From contig NZ_JACCFK010000002.1 of assembly GCF_013410405.1 (NCBI RefSeq), forward strand, positions 124,001-188,000: a DNA stretch of 64,000 nt. The letters are read 5' to 3'. The stretch is from Amycolatopsis endophytica. GTDB lineage: Bacteria; Actinomycetota; Actinomycetes; Mycobacteriales; Pseudonocardiaceae. Shown in pieces: positions 12,010 to 23,868 of the stretch (position 1 is the stretch's first letter; the number at the start of each line of letters is the position of its first letter). The position numbers and the translations under genes were made by a program. The notes beneath the pieces were generated by a model. It had not been told where the DNA came from, did no database searches, and saw nothing but the letters and a program-made list of their open reading frames with translations.

Positions 12010-13734
<1,725 letters not shown>

Positions 13735-13808
13735 TCAGTCAGAGTGGCATGTCACCTGCCCGAACACCAGTGAAAAGCCCGTGCGCCGTGGGGCGATTTT
13801 CACCGCGG

Positions 13809-13828
13809 ATAGGGCACAAAGGCCCCGT
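13809..13828. promoter_or_regulatory. Candidate DosR-like site upstream of the nitroreductase gene
   Basis: The core GGGCACAAAGGCCC (13812-13825) matches 10 of 14 core positions. It lies in the 179-bp divergent region, 75 bp from the kinase start and 86 bp from the nitroreductase ATG. No other clear element was found in this region. Confidence 0.38.
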
Positions 13829-13913
13829 GCCCGGTGACGGCGTGCCCTCGTGTGGGGGAAGGCGCGGGAGAACAGTGGAGCGATCCCGGACCCGTCGTGG
13901 CAGGGGGCGCCCG

Positions 13914-14831
13914 ATGTCTTTCGCGAGCCAGGACCCGGTGGGGGCCGCGCTCGGTGCCGCGATCCGCGCGCCGTCACCGCACAACACCCAGCCGTGGCGG
14001 TTCGAGGTGGACGGTGACCGGATCGAGGTGTTTCTCGATCAGGACCGCGTGCTGAAGGTGGCCGATCCCGAGGGCCGGGAGGCGCGGTTGGCGTGTGGCG
14101 CGGCGCTGTTGAACATGCGTCTCGCCGTGCGGGCGGTGGGCCGGACGCCGGTGGTGGGGCTGGTGCCGCGGGCGAACGAGCCTGCGCATCTGGCGACGGT
14201 GCGGGTGCGGGGCCGACGGAGGCCGAACCCCGACGACGTGGCGATGGCGCGGGCGATCGTCTACCGGCGGAGCAACCGGCGCGCGTTCACGGCCCGTGAG
14301 GTGCCGGTGTGGGTGCTGGAGGCGCTCGTGCGGGCGGCCGCGGAGGAGGGTGGTGCCCTGGTGCCCTTGACCGGCGGTGCGCGGCTGGCGGAGTTCGGGG
14401 GGTTACTGCGGGAGGCGGAGCGGGTGCAGCGCGACGATCCCGCGTACCAGGAGGAGCTGGCGCGGTGGACGGCGCTGGAGGGGGCACGGAAGGACGGGCT
14501 GCCTGCCGCGGCGGCGGTGATGGGGCCGGAGTGGCCGTTCGATCGCCGTCCGCTGGTGGCGGTGCTGTTGTCGGACACCGACGGCAGGGCGGCGCAGGTG
14601 CGGGCGGGTCAGGCGTTGCAGCGGGTGCTGTTGCGGGCGACGACGGCCGGGGTGAGCGTGTCGTTTCTCGCGCAGCCGGTGGAGGTGCCCGCGTTACGGG
14701 GCGAGGTGGCGCGGCTGGTCGCGGCGCCGGGGTGTCCGCAGGTGGTGCTGCGGTTCGGGTACGGGTTCGCGGCACCGGCGACGCGGCGGCGGCCGGTGGC
14801 GGCGGTGACGCATTACACCGGCGGTGGTTAG
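13914..14831 (+). CDS. Acg-type nitroreductase family protein
   Basis: This 305-residue protein belongs to the Acg family of FMN-binding nitroreductase-fold proteins, recognisable from AAIRAPSPHNTQPWRF at the N-terminus, YRRSNRRAF in the middle and PQVVLRFGYG near the end. In M. tuberculosis the members Acg (Rv2032), Rv3127 and Rv3131 are all DosR-induced; they can bind FMN but may lack reductase activity. ATG 13914 gives a normal N-terminus. It is divergent from the DevS-like kinase, with a DosR-like site between them, and the formate dehydrogenase cluster follows in the same direction. Confidence 0.88.
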   Translation: MSFASQDPVGAALGAAIRAPSPHNTQPWRFEVDGDRIEVFLDQDRVLKVADPEGREARLACGAALLNMRLAVRAVGRTPVVGLVPRANEPAHLATVRVRGRRRPNPDDVAMARAIVYRRSNRRAFTAREVPVWVLEALVRAAAEEGGALVPLTGGARLAEFGGLLREAERVQRDDPAYQEELARWTALEGARKDGLPAAAAVMGPEWPFDRRPLVAVLLSDTDGRAAQVRAGQALQRVLLRATTAGVSVSFLAQPVEVPALRGEVARLVAAPGCPQVVLRFGYGFAAPATRRRPVAAVTHYTGGG

Positions 14832-14860
14832 GCAGGGCCGCGGTGGGGCATCTGTGCGGC

Positions 14861-15289
14861 ATGGCCCGCGAAGACTCCCTTCCGACGTTGCGCAGCCTCG
14901 CGGATCTGGCGCAGCTGCTGATTCCCGGCGCGGTCGTCTATGTGCGGTACTCACCGGGCCCGGAGTCCGACGTGGGGCATCCGAGCACCGATCACGAGAG
15001 CGGGCTGCGGATGCCGGGGGTGTCGGTGAACCCGCTGAACCCACCGGGCTGGTGGTCGCTGCCGGTGGAGGACTGGCTGGCGCGCCGGATCTGCCAGTAC
15101 CTGCACCAGCAGCGGGAGGGGGCGCGCCCGTGGGTGCTGGGCGGGACGGAGGTGGATTTCGGGCCGGACAACGAGCCGTTGCTGGTGGATGTCGAGCCGA
15201 TCGCGTGGATCGCGGACGAGCTGGTGACCGAGGCCCGCGAGCGCTACCACTCCCGGCTGGACGCGGGGGCTTCGACGCACGAGGATTGA
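14861..15289 (+). CDS. DUF6098-type protein next to formate dehydrogenase
   Basis: This 142-residue protein has the pattern of a small actinobacterial family (DUF6098 as I recall): LPTLRSLADL, VYVRYSPGPESD, a GVSVNPLNPPGWW segment, RICQYLHQQREGARPWVL and FGPDNEPLLVDVEPIAWI. It has no signal peptide, metal motif or membrane segment. ATG 14861 is chosen; an in-frame GTG at 14843 is an alternative. It sits between the nitroreductase and formate dehydrogenase genes, all co-directional, and may have a role in assembly or regulation of the dehydrogenase. That role is inferred from position only. Confidence 0.72.
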   Translation: MAREDSLPTLRSLADLAQLLIPGAVVYVRYSPGPESDVGHPSTDHESGLRMPGVSVNPLNPPGWWSLPVEDWLARRICQYLHQQREGARPWVLGGTEVDFGPDNEPLLVDVEPIAWIADELVTEARERYHSRLDAGASTHED

Positions 15290-15343
15290 TCTCGCGGGTT
15301 TGCCCGCCGCGGTGGCGGGGAAAGCGGGCGGCAGGAGGTGGCG

Positions 15344-18300
15344 ATGGGCGTGGGCGACTGGGTGCGGTCGTGGCCGGTGCTGCGGCAGTTGAGCGGTGCC
15401 GACCCGCTGGGCCGGGGCAGTGCGGCGCAGTCCGCGCGGTCGAAGTCCCTGGAGCCCCGCACCGCCTCGGCGGACCGGGTGGTGCATTCGGTGTGCCCGT
15501 ACTGCGCGGTCGGGTGTTCGCAGAAGGTGTTCGTGAAGGACGAGCAGGTCGTCCAGATCGAGGGCAACCCGGATTCGCCGATCTCGCGGGGGCGGTTGTG
15601 CCCGAAGGGGTCGGCGAGCAAGCAGCTGGTGACCGGGCCGCAGCGGCAGGAGAAGGTGCTCTACCGCGCCCCGTACGGCACGCAGTGGCAGGAGCTGGAC
15701 CTGTCGGCGGCGATGGACATGGTCGCCGACCGGGTGCTGGACGCGCGGCGCAGGGGCTGGCAGGACACCGACGAGCACGGTCATCCGCTGCGCCGGACCA
15801 TGGGGCTGGCGAGCCTGGGCGGGGCGACGCTGGACAACGAAGAGAACTACCTGATCAAGAAGCTGTTCACGGCGATGGGTGCGATCCAGATCGAGAACCA
15901 GGCCCGTATTTGACACTCCGCCACGGTTCCCGGTCTGGGAGCCTCCTTCGGTCGCGGTGGCGCGACGGACTACCAGCAGGACCTGATCAACGCCGACTGC
16001 GTGATCATCATGGGCTCGAACATGGCCGAGGCCCATCCGGTGGGTTTCCAGTGGGTCGTGGAAGCCAAGGCGCGGGGCGCCAAGGTGTTCCACATCGATC
16101 CGCGGTTCACGCGGACGAGCGCGATGGCCGACCGGCACGTGCCGTTGCGGGCGGGGACGGACATCGCGTTCCTGGGCGGGGTGATCAACCACATCCTGTC
16201 CAACGGGCTGGAGTTCCGGGAGTACGTGCAGGCTTACACGAACGCGCCGTTCCTGGTGCGGGAGGATTTCGCCGACACCGAGGACCTGGACGGGTTGTTC
16301 AGCGGGTACGACCCGGAGTCGGCGTCCTACGATCCGGGGAGCTGGCACTACGAGAGCGTGCCGCCGCGGGAGGGCCGGGGCGAGCGGGCGAAGGAGCAGT
16401 CGGCGCCGGACCAGCACGGCTCGGGTGGGCCGCCGCTGGAGGGCGGGGCCGACGAGATCGCCGCTGATCCGTCGCTGGAGCATCCGCGGTGCGTGTTCCA
16501 GATCCTCAAGCGGCATTTCGCGCGGTACACGCCGGAGATGGTGGAGCGGGTGTGTGGTGTGCCGCGGGAGCTGTTCGACGAGGTGTGCCGGGCGTGGACG
16601 GCGAACTCTGGGCGGGAGCGGACGGCGGCGCTGGTGTACAGCGTGGGGTGGACGCAGCATTCGATGGGTGCCCAGTACATCCGGGCCGGGTCGATCATCC
16701 AGTTGCTGCTGGGCAACATCGGCCGTCCGGGTGGCGGGGTGTTCGCGTTGCGGGGGCACGCCTCGATCCAGGGGTCGACGGACATCCCGACGTTGTTCAA
16801 CCTGCTGCCCGGGTACCTGCCGATGGCGGACACCTCGCACGAGGGCATCGGCGGCTATCTGGACCTGGTGCGGGGTGACCGGCAGAAGGGGTTCTGGCGC
16901 AACGCCGACGCCTATCTGGTGTCGCTGCTCAAGGAGTACTGGGGCGAGCACGCCACGGCCGAGAACGACTGGTGTTTCGACTACCTGCCGCGGATCAACG
17001 GCGATCACGGCACCTACCGCACGGTCATGGACATGATCGACGGGAAGGTGTTCGGGTACTTCCTGCTGGGGCAGAACCCGGCGGTGGGGTCGGCGAACGG
17101 GCGGTTGCAGCGGCTGGGGATGGCGAACCTGGACTGGCTGGTGGTGCGCGACCTGGCGATGATCGAGAGCGCGACGTTCTGGAAGGACTCGCCGGAGATC
17201 GAGACCGGGGAGATCGCGCCGGAGCGGTGCCGCACGGAGGTGTTCTTCTTCCCGGCGGCCTCGCACGTGGAGAAGTCGGGCACGTTCACGCAGACGCAGC
17301 GGATGTTGCAGTGGCGGGACAAGGCGGTGGAGCCCAAGGGGGACCAGCGCAGCGAGCTGTGGTTCTTCTACCACCTGGGCCGGATCCTGAAGGAGAAGCT
17401 GGCCGGTTCGGCCGATGAGCGGGATCGTCCGCTGCTGGACCTGTGGTGGGACTACCGGATGGAGCACGGTGACGAGCCCTCGGGTGCGGACGTGCTGCGC
17501 CGGATCAGCGGGGTGGACCTGGGCGAGGACCGGGCGCTGAACGGGTACCTGGAGCTCAAGGCCGATGGCAGCACGGCGTGCGGGTGCTGGATCTACAGCG
17601 GGGTGTACGCCGATGAGGTGAACCAGGCGGCGCGCCGCAAGCCGCACGACGAGCAGGGGCCGTATGAGTCGGAGTGGGGCTGGACGTGGCCGCTGAACCG
17701 GCGGGTGCTCTACAACCGGGCCTCGGCCGATCCGTGGGGGCGGCCGTGGAGTGAGCGCAAGAAGCTGGTGTGGTGGGACGCGGAGAAGGGTGAGTGGACC
17801 GGGTACGACGTGCCGGACTTCGAGAAGAACAAACCGCCGGACTTCGTGCCGGAGCCGGGCGCGGTCGGGCCGGACGCGTTGCACGGCGACGACCCGTTCA
17901 TCATGCAGGCGGACGGCAAGGGCTGGCTGTTCGCGCCGAACGGGGTGCTGGACGGGCCGTTGCCGACGCACTACGAGCCGCACGAGTCGCCGGTGCGCAA
18001 CGCCCTGTACGGGCAGCAGGGCAATCCGGCGCGCAAGGTGTACGCGCGGGTGGACAACCCGTCGAACCCGTCGCCGCCGGAGGCGCACGGTGAGGTGTTC
18101 CCGTTCGTGTTCACCGCGTCGCGGCTGACCGAGCACCACACGGCGGGCGGGATGAGCCGTCAGCTGCCGTATCTGGCGGAGTTGCAGCCGGCGTTGTTCG
18201 TGGAGGTGTCGCCGGAGCTGGCGGCCGAGCGGGATCTGGTGCACCTGGACTGGGCGCATGTGGTGACGAGCCGGTCGGCGGTGGACGCGCGGGTGTTCGT

Positions 18301-18601
18301 GACCGAGCGGATGCGGCCGCTGCGGATCTCCGACCGGGTGGTGCACCAGGTGTGGATGCCTTATCACTGGGGGCACACCGGGCTGGTGGACGGTGACGTG
18401 GTCAACGATCTGCTCGGGGTGGTGGCCGATCCGAACGTGTTCATCCAGGAGAGCAAGGTGGCGACCTGCGATGTGCGACCGGGGCGGCGGCCGCGTGGCC
18501 CGGCGCTGCTGGCTTACCTGGAGGAGTACCGGGGGCGAGCGGGGATCACGGTGGAGACCGGGACGCGGATCGACACGGCCGACGGTGCGGAGGAGCGGTG
18601 A
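15344..18601 (+). CDS. Selenocysteine-containing formate dehydrogenase, catalytic (alpha) subunit
   Basis: This is a 1085-residue molybdopterin oxidoreductase that oxidises formate to CO2. The N-terminal [4Fe-4S] motif is CPYCAVGCS with the fourth Cys in RGRLCPKGS. The frame contains one TGA (15911-15913) at codon 190, exactly where family members have the Mo-ligating Cys or Sec (QARI-U-HSATV), with the conserved His after it and a downstream GRGGATD. A SECIS hairpin begins 11 nt after the TGA. Reading through gives one continuous protein to 18601, so this is selenocysteine rather than a frameshift. ATG 15344 has AGGAGG 5 nt upstream. No twin-arginine signal is visible, unlike E. coli FdnG, so a cytoplasmic active site is likely. 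The beta and NrfD-type subunits follow with 1-bp overlaps. Confidence 0.94.
15925..15943 (+). promoter_or_regulatory. Bacterial SECIS element directing UGA recoding
   Basis: GGTTCCC (15925-15931) pairs with GGGAGCC (15937-15943) around the loop GGTCT. The hairpin starts 11 nt after the TGA. E. coli fdhF has the same 11-nt spacing and a GGUC apical loop on a similar stem, the SelB-binding determinant. The hairpin lies within the coding sequence, as required in bacteria. Confidence 0.88.
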
Positions 18602-19503
18602 TGGCGAACAGCTTCTACGGTCCGCTCGACGATCCCGCCGGTGAGGCGGGTTACCGGGAGCATCCACCGCGGGTGGGGTTTTTCACCGACACGTCGGTGT
18701 GCATCGGGTGCAAGGCGTGCGAGGTGGCGTGCAAGGAGTGGAACGGGGTTCCCGACGACGGGTTCGATCTGCTGGGGATGTCGTTCGACAACACCGGTGA
18801 GCTGGGCGCGAACTCGTGGCGGCACGTGGCGTTCGTGGAGCAGGAGCGGCCGGGGGCGGACTCGCCGGAGCCGGTGGATCTGGGGCTGCCCGCGTTCGAC
18901 CTGCCCGGCGCGGACGGGGACGCGGGGACGCGCACCGATTTCCGGTGGTTGATGAGTTCGGACGTGTGCAAGCACTGCACGCACGCCGGATGCCTGGACG
19001 TGTGTCCGACGGGGGCGTTGTTCCGCACCGAGTTCGGGTCGGTGGTGGTGCAGCCGGACATCTGCAACGGGTGCGGCTACTGCGTGTCCGGCTGCCCGTA
19101 CGGGGTGATCCAGCGGCGCGAGGACGACGGCCGCGCCTGGAAGTGCACGCTGTGTTACGACCGGCTGCGGGACGGGCAGGAGCCGGCGTGCGCGAAGGCG
19201 TGCCCGACCGACTCGATCCAGTTCGGGCCGCTGGACGAGCTGCGGGACAGGGCGGCGCGGCGGGTGGACGCCCTGCACGGGGCGGGCGTGACCGAGGCGC
19301 GGCTCTACGGTGAGAACCCTGATGACGGGGTGGGCGGTGACGGGGCGTTCTTCCTGTTGCTGGACGAGCCCGAGGTGTACGGTCTGCCGCCGGATCCGGT
19401 GGTGCCGACGCGGCACGCGGGGTCGATGTGGAAGTACGCGGGCATGGCCGCGTCGGCGTTCGCGGCCGCCGCGGTGTCGGTCTTCTTCGGACGGGGCAGG
19501 TGA
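18601..19503 (+). CDS. Formate dehydrogenase iron-sulfur (beta) subunit
   Basis: This 300-residue electron-transfer subunit has four ferredoxin-type cysteine clusters: CIGCKACEVACKEWN, CKHCTHAGCLDVCPTGA, CNGCGYCVSGCPYGV, and CTLCYDRLRDG with CAKACPTDSI. It can thus bind four [4Fe-4S] centres, as in FdnH. A single hydrophobic helix near the C-terminus (KYAGMAASAFAAAAVSVFF) probably anchors it to the membrane. The ATG overlaps the alpha-subunit stop by one base (TGATG), with AGGAG 5 nt upstream. It passes electrons from the catalytic subunit to the NrfD-type membrane protein. Confidence 0.95.
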   Translation: MANSFYGPLDDPAGEAGYREHPPRVGFFTDTSVCIGCKACEVACKEWNGVPDDGFDLLGMSFDNTGELGANSWRHVAFVEQERPGADSPEPVDLGLPAFDLPGADGDAGTRTDFRWLMSSDVCKHCTHAGCLDVCPTGALFRTEFGSVVVQPDICNGCGYCVSGCPYGVIQRREDDGRAWKCTLCYDRLRDGQEPACAKACPTDSIQFGPLDELRDRAARRVDALHGAGVTEARLYGENPDDGVGGDGAFFLLLDEPEVYGLPPDPVVPTRHAGSMWKYAGMAASAFAAAAVSVFFGRGR

Positions 19504-20429
19504 TGAAGGAACAGCTCGCGGTGCCGCAGGCGGAGTTCCGGTCCTACTACGGGCGGCCGGTGCTCAAGCCGCCGGTGTGGGAGTGGAAGATCGCGGCTTA
19601 CCTGTTCACCGGCGGGTTGTCGGCCGGGTCGGCGATGCTGGGTGCCGGGGCCGATCTGACCGGGCGCCCGGCGCTGCGGCGGGTGGGCCGGGCCGGGGCG
19701 CTGGGCGCGCTGGGGGCGAGCCTGTACCTGCTGGTAGCCGATCTCGGGCGGCCGGAACGGTTCCTGCACATGTTGCGGGTGGCCAAGCCGAGTTCGCCGA
19801 TGAGCGTCGGCACCTGGATCCTGGTCGCCTACGGGCCGGGTGCGGGTGTGGCCGGGGTGGCGGAGATGGTGCCATCACGGTGGTGGGCGGGGCGGTTGCT
19901 GCGCCGGCTGGCCCGGCCGGGTGGGCTGGCGGCGGCGGCGATCGCGCCCGCGGTGGCCTCCTACACGTCGGTGTTGTTGTCGCAGACGGCGGTTCCGGCG
20001 TGGCAGGACGCGCACCGGCAGCTGCCGTTCGTGTTCACCGGGTCGGCCGCGGCCAGCGGCGCCGGGCTGGGACTGGTGTTCGCGCCGGTCGGGGAGGCCG
20101 GGCCCGCCCGGCGGCTGGCGGTCATCGGGGCGGCGGCCGAGGTGGCCGGGTCGAAGGTGATCGACCAGCGGCTGGGGCTGACCTCGCAGGCCTACACCAC
20201 GGGCAAGGCGCACCGGCTGCGGAAGTGGTCGGAGTACCTGACGCTGGGCGGCGCCGCGGGCGCGCTGCTCGCCGCCCCACGCGGCCGTGCCGCGGCGGTG
20301 GTTTCCGGGCTGGCGCTGCTGGCGGGCAGCGTGCTGCAGCGGTTCGGGGTGTTCGAGGCCGGGGTGGCGTCCACGAAGGACCCGAAGTACGTGGTGGTGC
20401 CGCAGCGGGAACGGGTCAGCCGGGGCTGA
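19503..20429 (+). CDS. NrfD/PsrC-type membrane subunit of formate dehydrogenase
   Basis: This 308-residue integral membrane protein of the NrfD/PsrC family has about eight hydrophobic helices, with WEWKIAAYLFTGGLSAGSAML at the first and LVADLGRPERFLHMLRV in the loop that marks this family. Such proteins exchange electrons with menaquinone without haem. It replaces the cytochrome b gamma subunit of the E. coli complex. The ATG overlaps the beta-subunit stop by one base. Its last 14 bp overlap the end of the convergent MBL gene. Confidence 0.92.
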   Translation: MKEQLAVPQAEFRSYYGRPVLKPPVWEWKIAAYLFTGGLSAGSAMLGAGADLTGRPALRRVGRAGALGALGASLYLLVADLGRPERFLHMLRVAKPSSPMSVGTWILVAYGPGAGVAGVAEMVPSRWWAGRLLRRLARPGGLAAAAIAPAVASYTSVLLSQTAVPAWQDAHRQLPFVFTGSAAASGAGLGLVFAPVGEAGPARRLAVIGAAAEVAGSKVIDQRLGLTSQAYTTGKAHRLRKWSEYLTLGGAAGALLAAPRGRAAAVVSGLALLAGSVLQRFGVFEAGVASTKDPKYVVVPQRERVSRG

Positions 20430-22902: not shown

Positions 22903-23868
22903 TCAGCCGATCTCGCGTAGGTGGTGCTGGAAAGCGGTGTCGGCCGCCCGCAACGGCATGCCGAGTGCATGGCTGTAGGTGCGTGCCCAGGCCAGCCGCC
23001 GCTGCAGTTCCTCGCCGTCGGGCGTGTAGCGGGCGCCGGCGGCGGCGCGGTAGGTCGTCGCGGCCTGCTCGGCGGCGGTTTCGGCCTGGCGGTGGGCCTG
23101 CGCGGCCAGCCTGCGGCGGTGCTTGTCGGCGGCGGTGAGGGTTTCCTCGGCCAGCAACTGCGCCTGCGACAGCAGGGAAACGGCCAGCTCGTCGACGACC
23201 GCAGCGCCCTCCGTGGGCTCGCGCGGGCTGCGGGCCCGCAGTCGCGCCACTTCCGCACGCAGGCGCGTCGCCTCGCGGTCGCGCGCGGTGATCTCCTCGG
23301 CGACGCGACGCTGGAACGCGCGCACGTCCTCGCGGTCGAAACCGCGCCGGTACCGCCGCGCACGGCGGAACAGGCGGCCCCGCACCCGGTCGGCGGTCAG
23401 CTCGGCCCGCGGACCGGAATCCCCGTCGCCCAAGGGAAGCCGCACGCTCTGCCGACCGCGGCCGCGCACCTCGGCGTTGGTCATCACCTCGGCGACCACG
23501 GCGTAGGCGCCGGTCCAGTCCGCCGCCAGCTCCGGGGTCCACTCGTCACCCAGGAACCGTTCCAGCGTGGCCAGCAGCGCCTGGCCGACCAGCGGGTAGA
23601 ACTCCGGCAGCACGCCGGACTCGCGGTGCGCCCGCCCGAGCCGCCGCAGGGAGGGGACCGCGGCGTCGAGGTCGTCCACCCGCGACACGATGTCGCCCAG
23701 CGCCGCGACGAACCGGCCCCGCTGCTCGGTCAGCGACACCTCGAACAACTCCCGCAGCGCCGGGCGCAGCAGGAACAACGTGGCGTAGAACGACAGCGCG
23801 AACTCGTCGCCGCGCTCGGCGACCGTGGACCAGCTCGCCCGGAGACGCGCGACGTCCACGGCGGTCAA
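22903..23868 (-). CDS. Globin domain fused to DivIVA-like coiled coil
   Basis: Residues 1-135 form a flavohaemoglobin-type globin: Tyr28 (B10, LSFYATLF), Gln49 and the proximal His81 (LGRAHRESGVLPEFYPLVG) are all present, so haem binding is expected. In place of the FAD/NAD reductase domain there is a DivIVA-like segment, RGFDREDVRAFQRRVAEEI (about 175-193), then coiled coil to residue 213. A second helical block, SLLSQAQLLAEETLTAADKH, and following helices resemble Wag31/DivIVA C-termini. The start is TTG (23868); GTG 23859 is possible. A 7-bp-arm palindrome lies just upstream. It may link gas sensing to cell-pole or envelope organisation; this function is inferred. Confidence 0.8.
   Translation of the reverse strand: MTAVDVARLRASWSTVAERGDEFALSFYATLFLLRPALRELFEVSLTEQRGRFVAALGDIVSRVDDLDAAVPSLRRLGRAHRESGVLPEFYPLVGQALLATLERFLGDEWTPELAADWTGAYAVVAEVMTNAEVRGRGRQSVRLPLGDGDSGPRAELTADRVRGRLFRRARRYRRGFDREDVRAFQRRVAEEITARDREATRLRAEVARLRARSPREPTEGAAVVDELAVSLLSQAQLLAEETLTAADKHRRRLAAQAHRQAETAAEQAATTYRAAAGARYTPDGEELQRRLAWARTYSHALGMPLRAADTAFQHHLREIG

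Follow-up and report, generated by a model that had tools for sequence, protein, structure and literature searches.

Does the in-frame TGA of a formate dehydrogenase gene in the actinomycete Amycolatopsis endophytica encode selenocysteine (Sec), and what would direct the ribosome to read it so? The window analyzed here is the whole stretch of 64,000 nucleotides at positions 124,001 to 188,000 of contig NZ_JACCFK010000002.1, in which fdhA, the gene for the formate dehydrogenase alpha subunit, occupies 15344 to 18601 on the forward strand. Judged from sequence comparison, fdhA almost certainly encodes the catalytic subunit of a formate dehydrogenase with a Sec ligand, its UGA being decoded through SelB and a downstream hairpin.

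The gene and its neighborhood

The fdhA frame contains a single internal TGA (codon 190; 15911 to 15913, forward strand) in the context ENQARI-U-HSATVPGL. Another 895 codons follow it without a stop, up to a terminal TGA at 18599 to 18601, giving a protein of 1085 amino acids in which Sec would be residue 190. The internal TGA stands at the metal-ligand position, in the same place as the TGA of Escherichia coli fdnG and fdhF. Direct reading of the sequence points to AGGAGG (15333 to 15338, forward strand), located 5' of the ATG, as the likely fdhA ribosome binding site, and a promoter scan gave no match above chance.

The predicted protein scores as a member of the NCBIfam family NF041513 (formate_DH_Act; 1923.2 bits; cutoff, 1400), with no difference seen, over residues 6 to 1064, which is nearly its whole length. 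It also exceeds the cutoff of TIGR01553 (formate dehydrogenase-N alpha; 906.3 bits; cutoff, 814.2). Its domains are PF04879 (N-terminal 4Fe-4S) and PF00384 and PF01568 (molybdopterin), and the Sec/Cys ligand codon is aligned with that of its relatives. Among solved structures, its best relatives are formate dehydrogenases, led by the nitrate-inducible enzyme 1kqf (E value, 4.9e-198). By eye, no twin-arginine motif was seen in the FdhA N terminus. The preliminary description had placed the TGA at the Mo-ligand position of a formate dehydrogenase gene continuous to 18601, and the frame and both family scores agree with it. It had also said that ordinary gene calling splits the gene, and a plain ORF list indeed cuts fdhA in two (15338 to 15913 and 16001 to 18601).

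Genes of this kind are already known, both from the NCBIfam model and from printed Sec-type formate dehydrogenases of actinobacteria. For Actinomycetospora chiangmaiensis DSM 45062, an actinobacterium like the window host, the published account describes a Sec-type formate dehydrogenase, selenite-dependent formate removal, membrane-bound FdhA1 (1078 amino acids) and FdhA2 (1089 amino acids) with predicted Sec, and SelA, SelB, and SelD at low abundance in the proteome; it lists SelA and SelB with the FDH1 cluster, whereas the window genome has selD, selA, and selB on a contig other than that of fdhA (PMC7176365). A genome note on Amycolatopsis mediterranei reports a UGA-containing formate dehydrogenase and a tRNA-Sec, as in the window genome, and gives both as absent in Amycolatopsis orientalis (PMC4048454). 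A Sec-containing formate dehydrogenase is likewise reported for Corynebacterium aurimucosum (PMC2830990). Among bacteria at large, formate dehydrogenase alpha and SelD are described as the most widespread selenoproteins (PMC5029168), and FdhA is said to account for 46.7% of detected Sec-to-Cys conversions (PMC1794560).

Two genes follow fdhA on the forward strand, each with an ATG that overlaps the preceding stop codon. These are fdhB, encoding an iron-sulfur subunit (18601 to 19503; PF13247, 86.4 bits; TIGR01582, 183.2 bits, below the cutoff of 334.7), and a gene for an NrfD-type membrane anchor (19503 to 20429; PF03916, 62.4 bits). With the window's own locus included, fdhB is the neighbor of fdhA in all 59 loci examined, and the anchor was found in 56 of them, a count in which locus ends cut the anchor short. 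FdhA would form the catalytic subunit of a formate dehydrogenase that is attached to the membrane and carries molybdenum (or tungsten), with Sec as the metal ligand; formate would be converted to CO2, and the electrons would pass through FdhB and the NrfD-type protein to the quinone pool. We infer Sec insertion and the activity, metal, electron acceptor, and orientation of the enzyme from the sequences.

The region 5' of fdhA (12010 to 15289) holds a GAF-GAF histidine kinase gene on the reverse strand, an Acg/Rv3131-type FMN oxidoreductase gene, and a DUF6098 gene. Within the 1.5 kb of flank visible, 8 of 59 loci, counting that of the window, have DUF6098 close to fdhA, and 6 of the 59 have Acg there; by these counts, the link to fdhA looks genus-local. 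Farther downstream, an ORF on the reverse strand (22903 to 23868) appears globin-like by eye.

Sec-decoding genes and the site codon in relatives

The preliminary description had reasoned that the host must carry selA, selB, selC, and selD elsewhere, and all four were found. One tRNA-Sec scores above the cutoff in the genome (72.2 bits; anticodon UCA according to ARAGORN; aligned to the family), about 1.28 Mb from fdhA on the same contig. On their separate contig, selD, selA, and selB stand side by side, with genome profile scores of 391 bits for SelD, 429.9 bits for SelA, and 238.7 bits for SelB. The last is just below the NCBIfam cutoff of 242.25, and the SelB winged-helix domain is clear (PF09107, 56.9 bits; cutoff, 23.2). 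FdhD is present as well (171.3 bits; cutoff, 140.9). With tRNA-Sec, SelA, SelB, and SelD, the genome has the gene content that defines the bacterial Sec-decoding trait. The UGA would be decoded by Sec-tRNA-Sec, brought by SelB bound to the hairpin 11 nucleotides (nt) downstream; without this delivery, the ribosome would stop.

Of the 13 rows from a formate dehydrogenase family search of the genome, only that of the window gene contains an internal TGA; the other 12 have no internal stop. A formate-dehydrogenase-like molybdopterin gene with an open frame of 779 amino acids and no internal stop lies about 3 kb from the tRNA-Sec (G000:C2:1410000-1426000; C2:1413027-1418084).

A sample of 200 genomes of the family, the window's own included, was searched for the gene (E value of ≤1e-100) and for tRNA-Sec (E value of ≤1e-9). 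The former is present in 126 genomes; the latter was found in 138, under stricter filters that lose weak matches. The earlier statement that most actinomycetes lack selenoproteins therefore fails within this family. The site codon was read in 138 family loci that cover all 126 genomes and leave out some paralogues; it is TGA in 129 loci (own included) and TGC in 9 or, counted by genome, TGA in 117 and TGC in 9. TGA coincides with a detected tRNA-Sec in 116 genomes and stands without one in a single genome (G138, which is 87% complete and in about 370 contigs), while TGC is found with tRNA-Sec in two genomes (G031 and G115) and without it in seven. Because relatives are not independent, the Fisher P value of 3.4e-9, uncorrected for kinship, overstates the association, the direction of which is plain. 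G031 and G115, as well as the 20 of the 138 tRNA-Sec genomes that have no match to the window formate dehydrogenase, may have other selenoproteins.

In a class-wide sample of 246 genomes, 72 had a match at an E value of ≤1e-60. The 49 further loci read from it comprise 29 best matches and 20 picked ones (including the 5 full-length rows that lack a stop), so that their TGA:TGC ratio is no fair sample. Counting that of the window, 187 loci were read in all, 169 with TGA and 18 with TGC at this codon. An in-frame UGA thus stands where some relatives have Cys, the pattern by which bacterial selenoproteins are recognized.

Some rows contained two TGAs. A second in-frame Sec codon was rejected, the extra TGA being the end stop in the rows fetched whole, which are those that this check covers; rows with the 5' part only were left out. 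The frames of L133 and L135 are themselves damaged, and an additional TGA occurs in L099, 691 codons further on. The locus L191 (G028:C178:1-3000) encodes a different formate dehydrogenase (38% identity across the matched region); its TGA is preceded by GTT, and a tRNA-Sec lies on the same contig.

The hairpin downstream of the TGA

A spacer of 11 nt (15914 to 15924) separates the TGA from a hairpin at 15925 to 15943 on the forward strand (GGTTCCCGGTCTGGGAGCC), which has 7 pairs, the loop GGUCU, and a folding energy of -11.2 kcal/mol. Its 5-nt loop, 7 pairs, and distance of 11 + 7 = 18 nt agree with the bacterial SECIS (bSECIS) model printed in PMC13188914. At 15908 to 15966, Rfam SECIS_3 (RF01989) scores 33.3 bits (E value, 5.9e-6) against a gathering score of 63, which bars the name SECIS_3 and leaves the assignment to the bSECIS model unaffected; a scan of the whole window at gathering scores gave no Rfam matches. 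Because, in addition, the 53-nt stretch from 15908 to 15960 by itself folds no better than shuffled sequences (z score, -0.45), the case for the hairpin rests on comparison and not on folding energy. A genome scan for the same type, in which 150 of 18712 first-look candidates were scored, yielded the window site (E value of 6.5e-15, by construction) and otherwise only two chance-level matches (E values of 1.87 and 8.64), one of which was inspected.

The comparison covered 62 distinct TGA sites, taken from the first 80 TGA loci, with 500 shuffles. The stem is paired in 96.1% of cells, and none of the shuffles reached either this level or the covariation score. Columns 21 and 33, which are third codon positions (GTx and GGx), pair as UA in 24 sites, UG in 18, CG in 14, GU in 4, and GC in 2; they are unpaired in 0 of the 62 sites and in 0 of 140 distinct TGA sites, again with several pair types. 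Most of the covariation is carried by one column pair only. Two of the five measures are weaker: 110 of the 500 shuffles had at least as many pairs changed on both sides as the 2 observed, and 15 had at least as many further pair types as the 8 observed. At 16 of the 62 sites, the bases of the outer pair 18/36 do not pair. The U20-A34 pair was rejected as independent proof of structure, since these positions are set by the protein and the pair is present in all 18 Cys genes. The hairpin is evolutionarily coupled to the Sec codon: in the nine TGC genes of the family, pairing falls to 60.3% of cells, with no excess over shuffles, and none of the 18 TGC genes read retains column pair 22/32.

E. 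coli SelB uses the bulged U of its hairpin. The stems of E. coli fdnG and fdhF, read from NC_000913, fold with this bulge and share with the window the UGA, the 11-nt spacer, and a similar loop (AGTCT in fdnG and GGTCT in fdhF). The preliminary description had likened the hairpin to that of fdhF, which is correct for the spacer and the loop letters and does not hold for the stem: the window has one extra nucleotide in the 3' arm, so that the U, which bulges out in E. coli, is faced by A or G. A or G stands opposite that U in 137 of the 140 distinct TGA sites. Imposing the E. coli-like bulged pairing on the alignment leaves 82.3% of cells paired, versus 96.1%, and a single site among the 62 forms pair 19/34. 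The bulge-free form is not unique to actinomycetes. Among the matches listed by a pattern scan (55 distinct sites out of 80 loci), 48 have the bulge and 7 fold without it, 6 of the latter being titled acidobacteria and 1 Senegalimassilia. It is thus a variant rather than a class of its own.

The base before the TGA and the reading of the codon

The codon preceding the TGA is ATT (Ile; 15908 to 15910, forward strand). Among the 140 distinct sites, its third base is T in 125, A in 14, G in 1, and C in none, which makes A or T in 139. Elsewhere in the same genes (codons counted at -150 to -2 and +12 to +139), ATC makes up 96.8% of Ile codons and GTC or GTG 97.7% of Val codons. In each of the 18 TGC genes, the site codon follows GTC or GTG. 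The UGA follows GTC in E. coli fdnG and fdhF, unlike in the window; among the matches listed for the pattern scan, C is the most frequent base there (35 of 55 sites), also at GC3 values above 0.85 (13 of 17). These counts suggest a lineage-wide constraint on the base before the TGA, with shared descent as a caveat. Whether actinomycete Sec decoding has cis rules of its own, such that a hairpin without a bulged U works and A or U is needed 5' of the UGA, is a tentative reading to which we give slightly less than an even chance.

A base other than C may keep the UGA clear of competing structure in a GC-rich mRNA. The predicted probability that the UGA is unpaired is 0.72, compared with 0.57 when C and 0.56 when G precedes it. 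However, a preceding C does not lower the predicted upper-stem probability, which rises slightly (from 0.49 to 0.54), and this counts against competing structure as the cause. Alternatively, the base may have a role in weakening termination at that codon. The T could also reflect G-U wobble pairing in the P site, an explanation weakened by the occurrence of ATA at 14 of the 140 sites. Judged against a limited literature search, the bulge-free pairing and the avoidance of C before the TGA may be new details.

The TGA could in principle be a sequencing or assembly error for TGC or TGT in an ordinary Cys formate dehydrogenase, as the occurrence of Cys homologues in 9 of 138 family loci allows. 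However, TGA was read at the site in the other 129 loci, from separate assemblies, and the preliminary description's own test, whether close relatives have a Cys codon here, gave TGA in all 10 other genomes of the genus in the sample of 200. The window also has neither the GTC or GTG codon nor the broken stem that mark all 18 Cys homologues, and we regard an error as extremely improbable. Scarcely more credible is the view that a nonsense mutation has truncated the gene into a pseudogene, or that another tRNA suppresses the UGA; the in-frame stop itself would speak for it. Against this view stand the length of open frame past the stop, the FdhA protein identity of 91 to 92% with seven of the ten congeners sampled, the covariation at synonymous hairpin sites, and the tRNA-Sec with its UCA anticodon. 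Taken together, the TGA in relatives and the coupling of the hairpin to the Sec codon make an error or a nonsense mutation very unlikely.

Our analysis thus speaks for a functional selenoprotein gene, one that is split by plain gene calling. The relatives provide a natural experiment, in that the Cys forms read have lost both the hairpin and the unusual preceding codon, and tRNA-Sec was not found in seven of the nine family genomes with such forms. If the base before the UGA is indeed constrained, GC-rich actinomycetes would have a cis feature that is absent from E. coli fdnG and fdhF.
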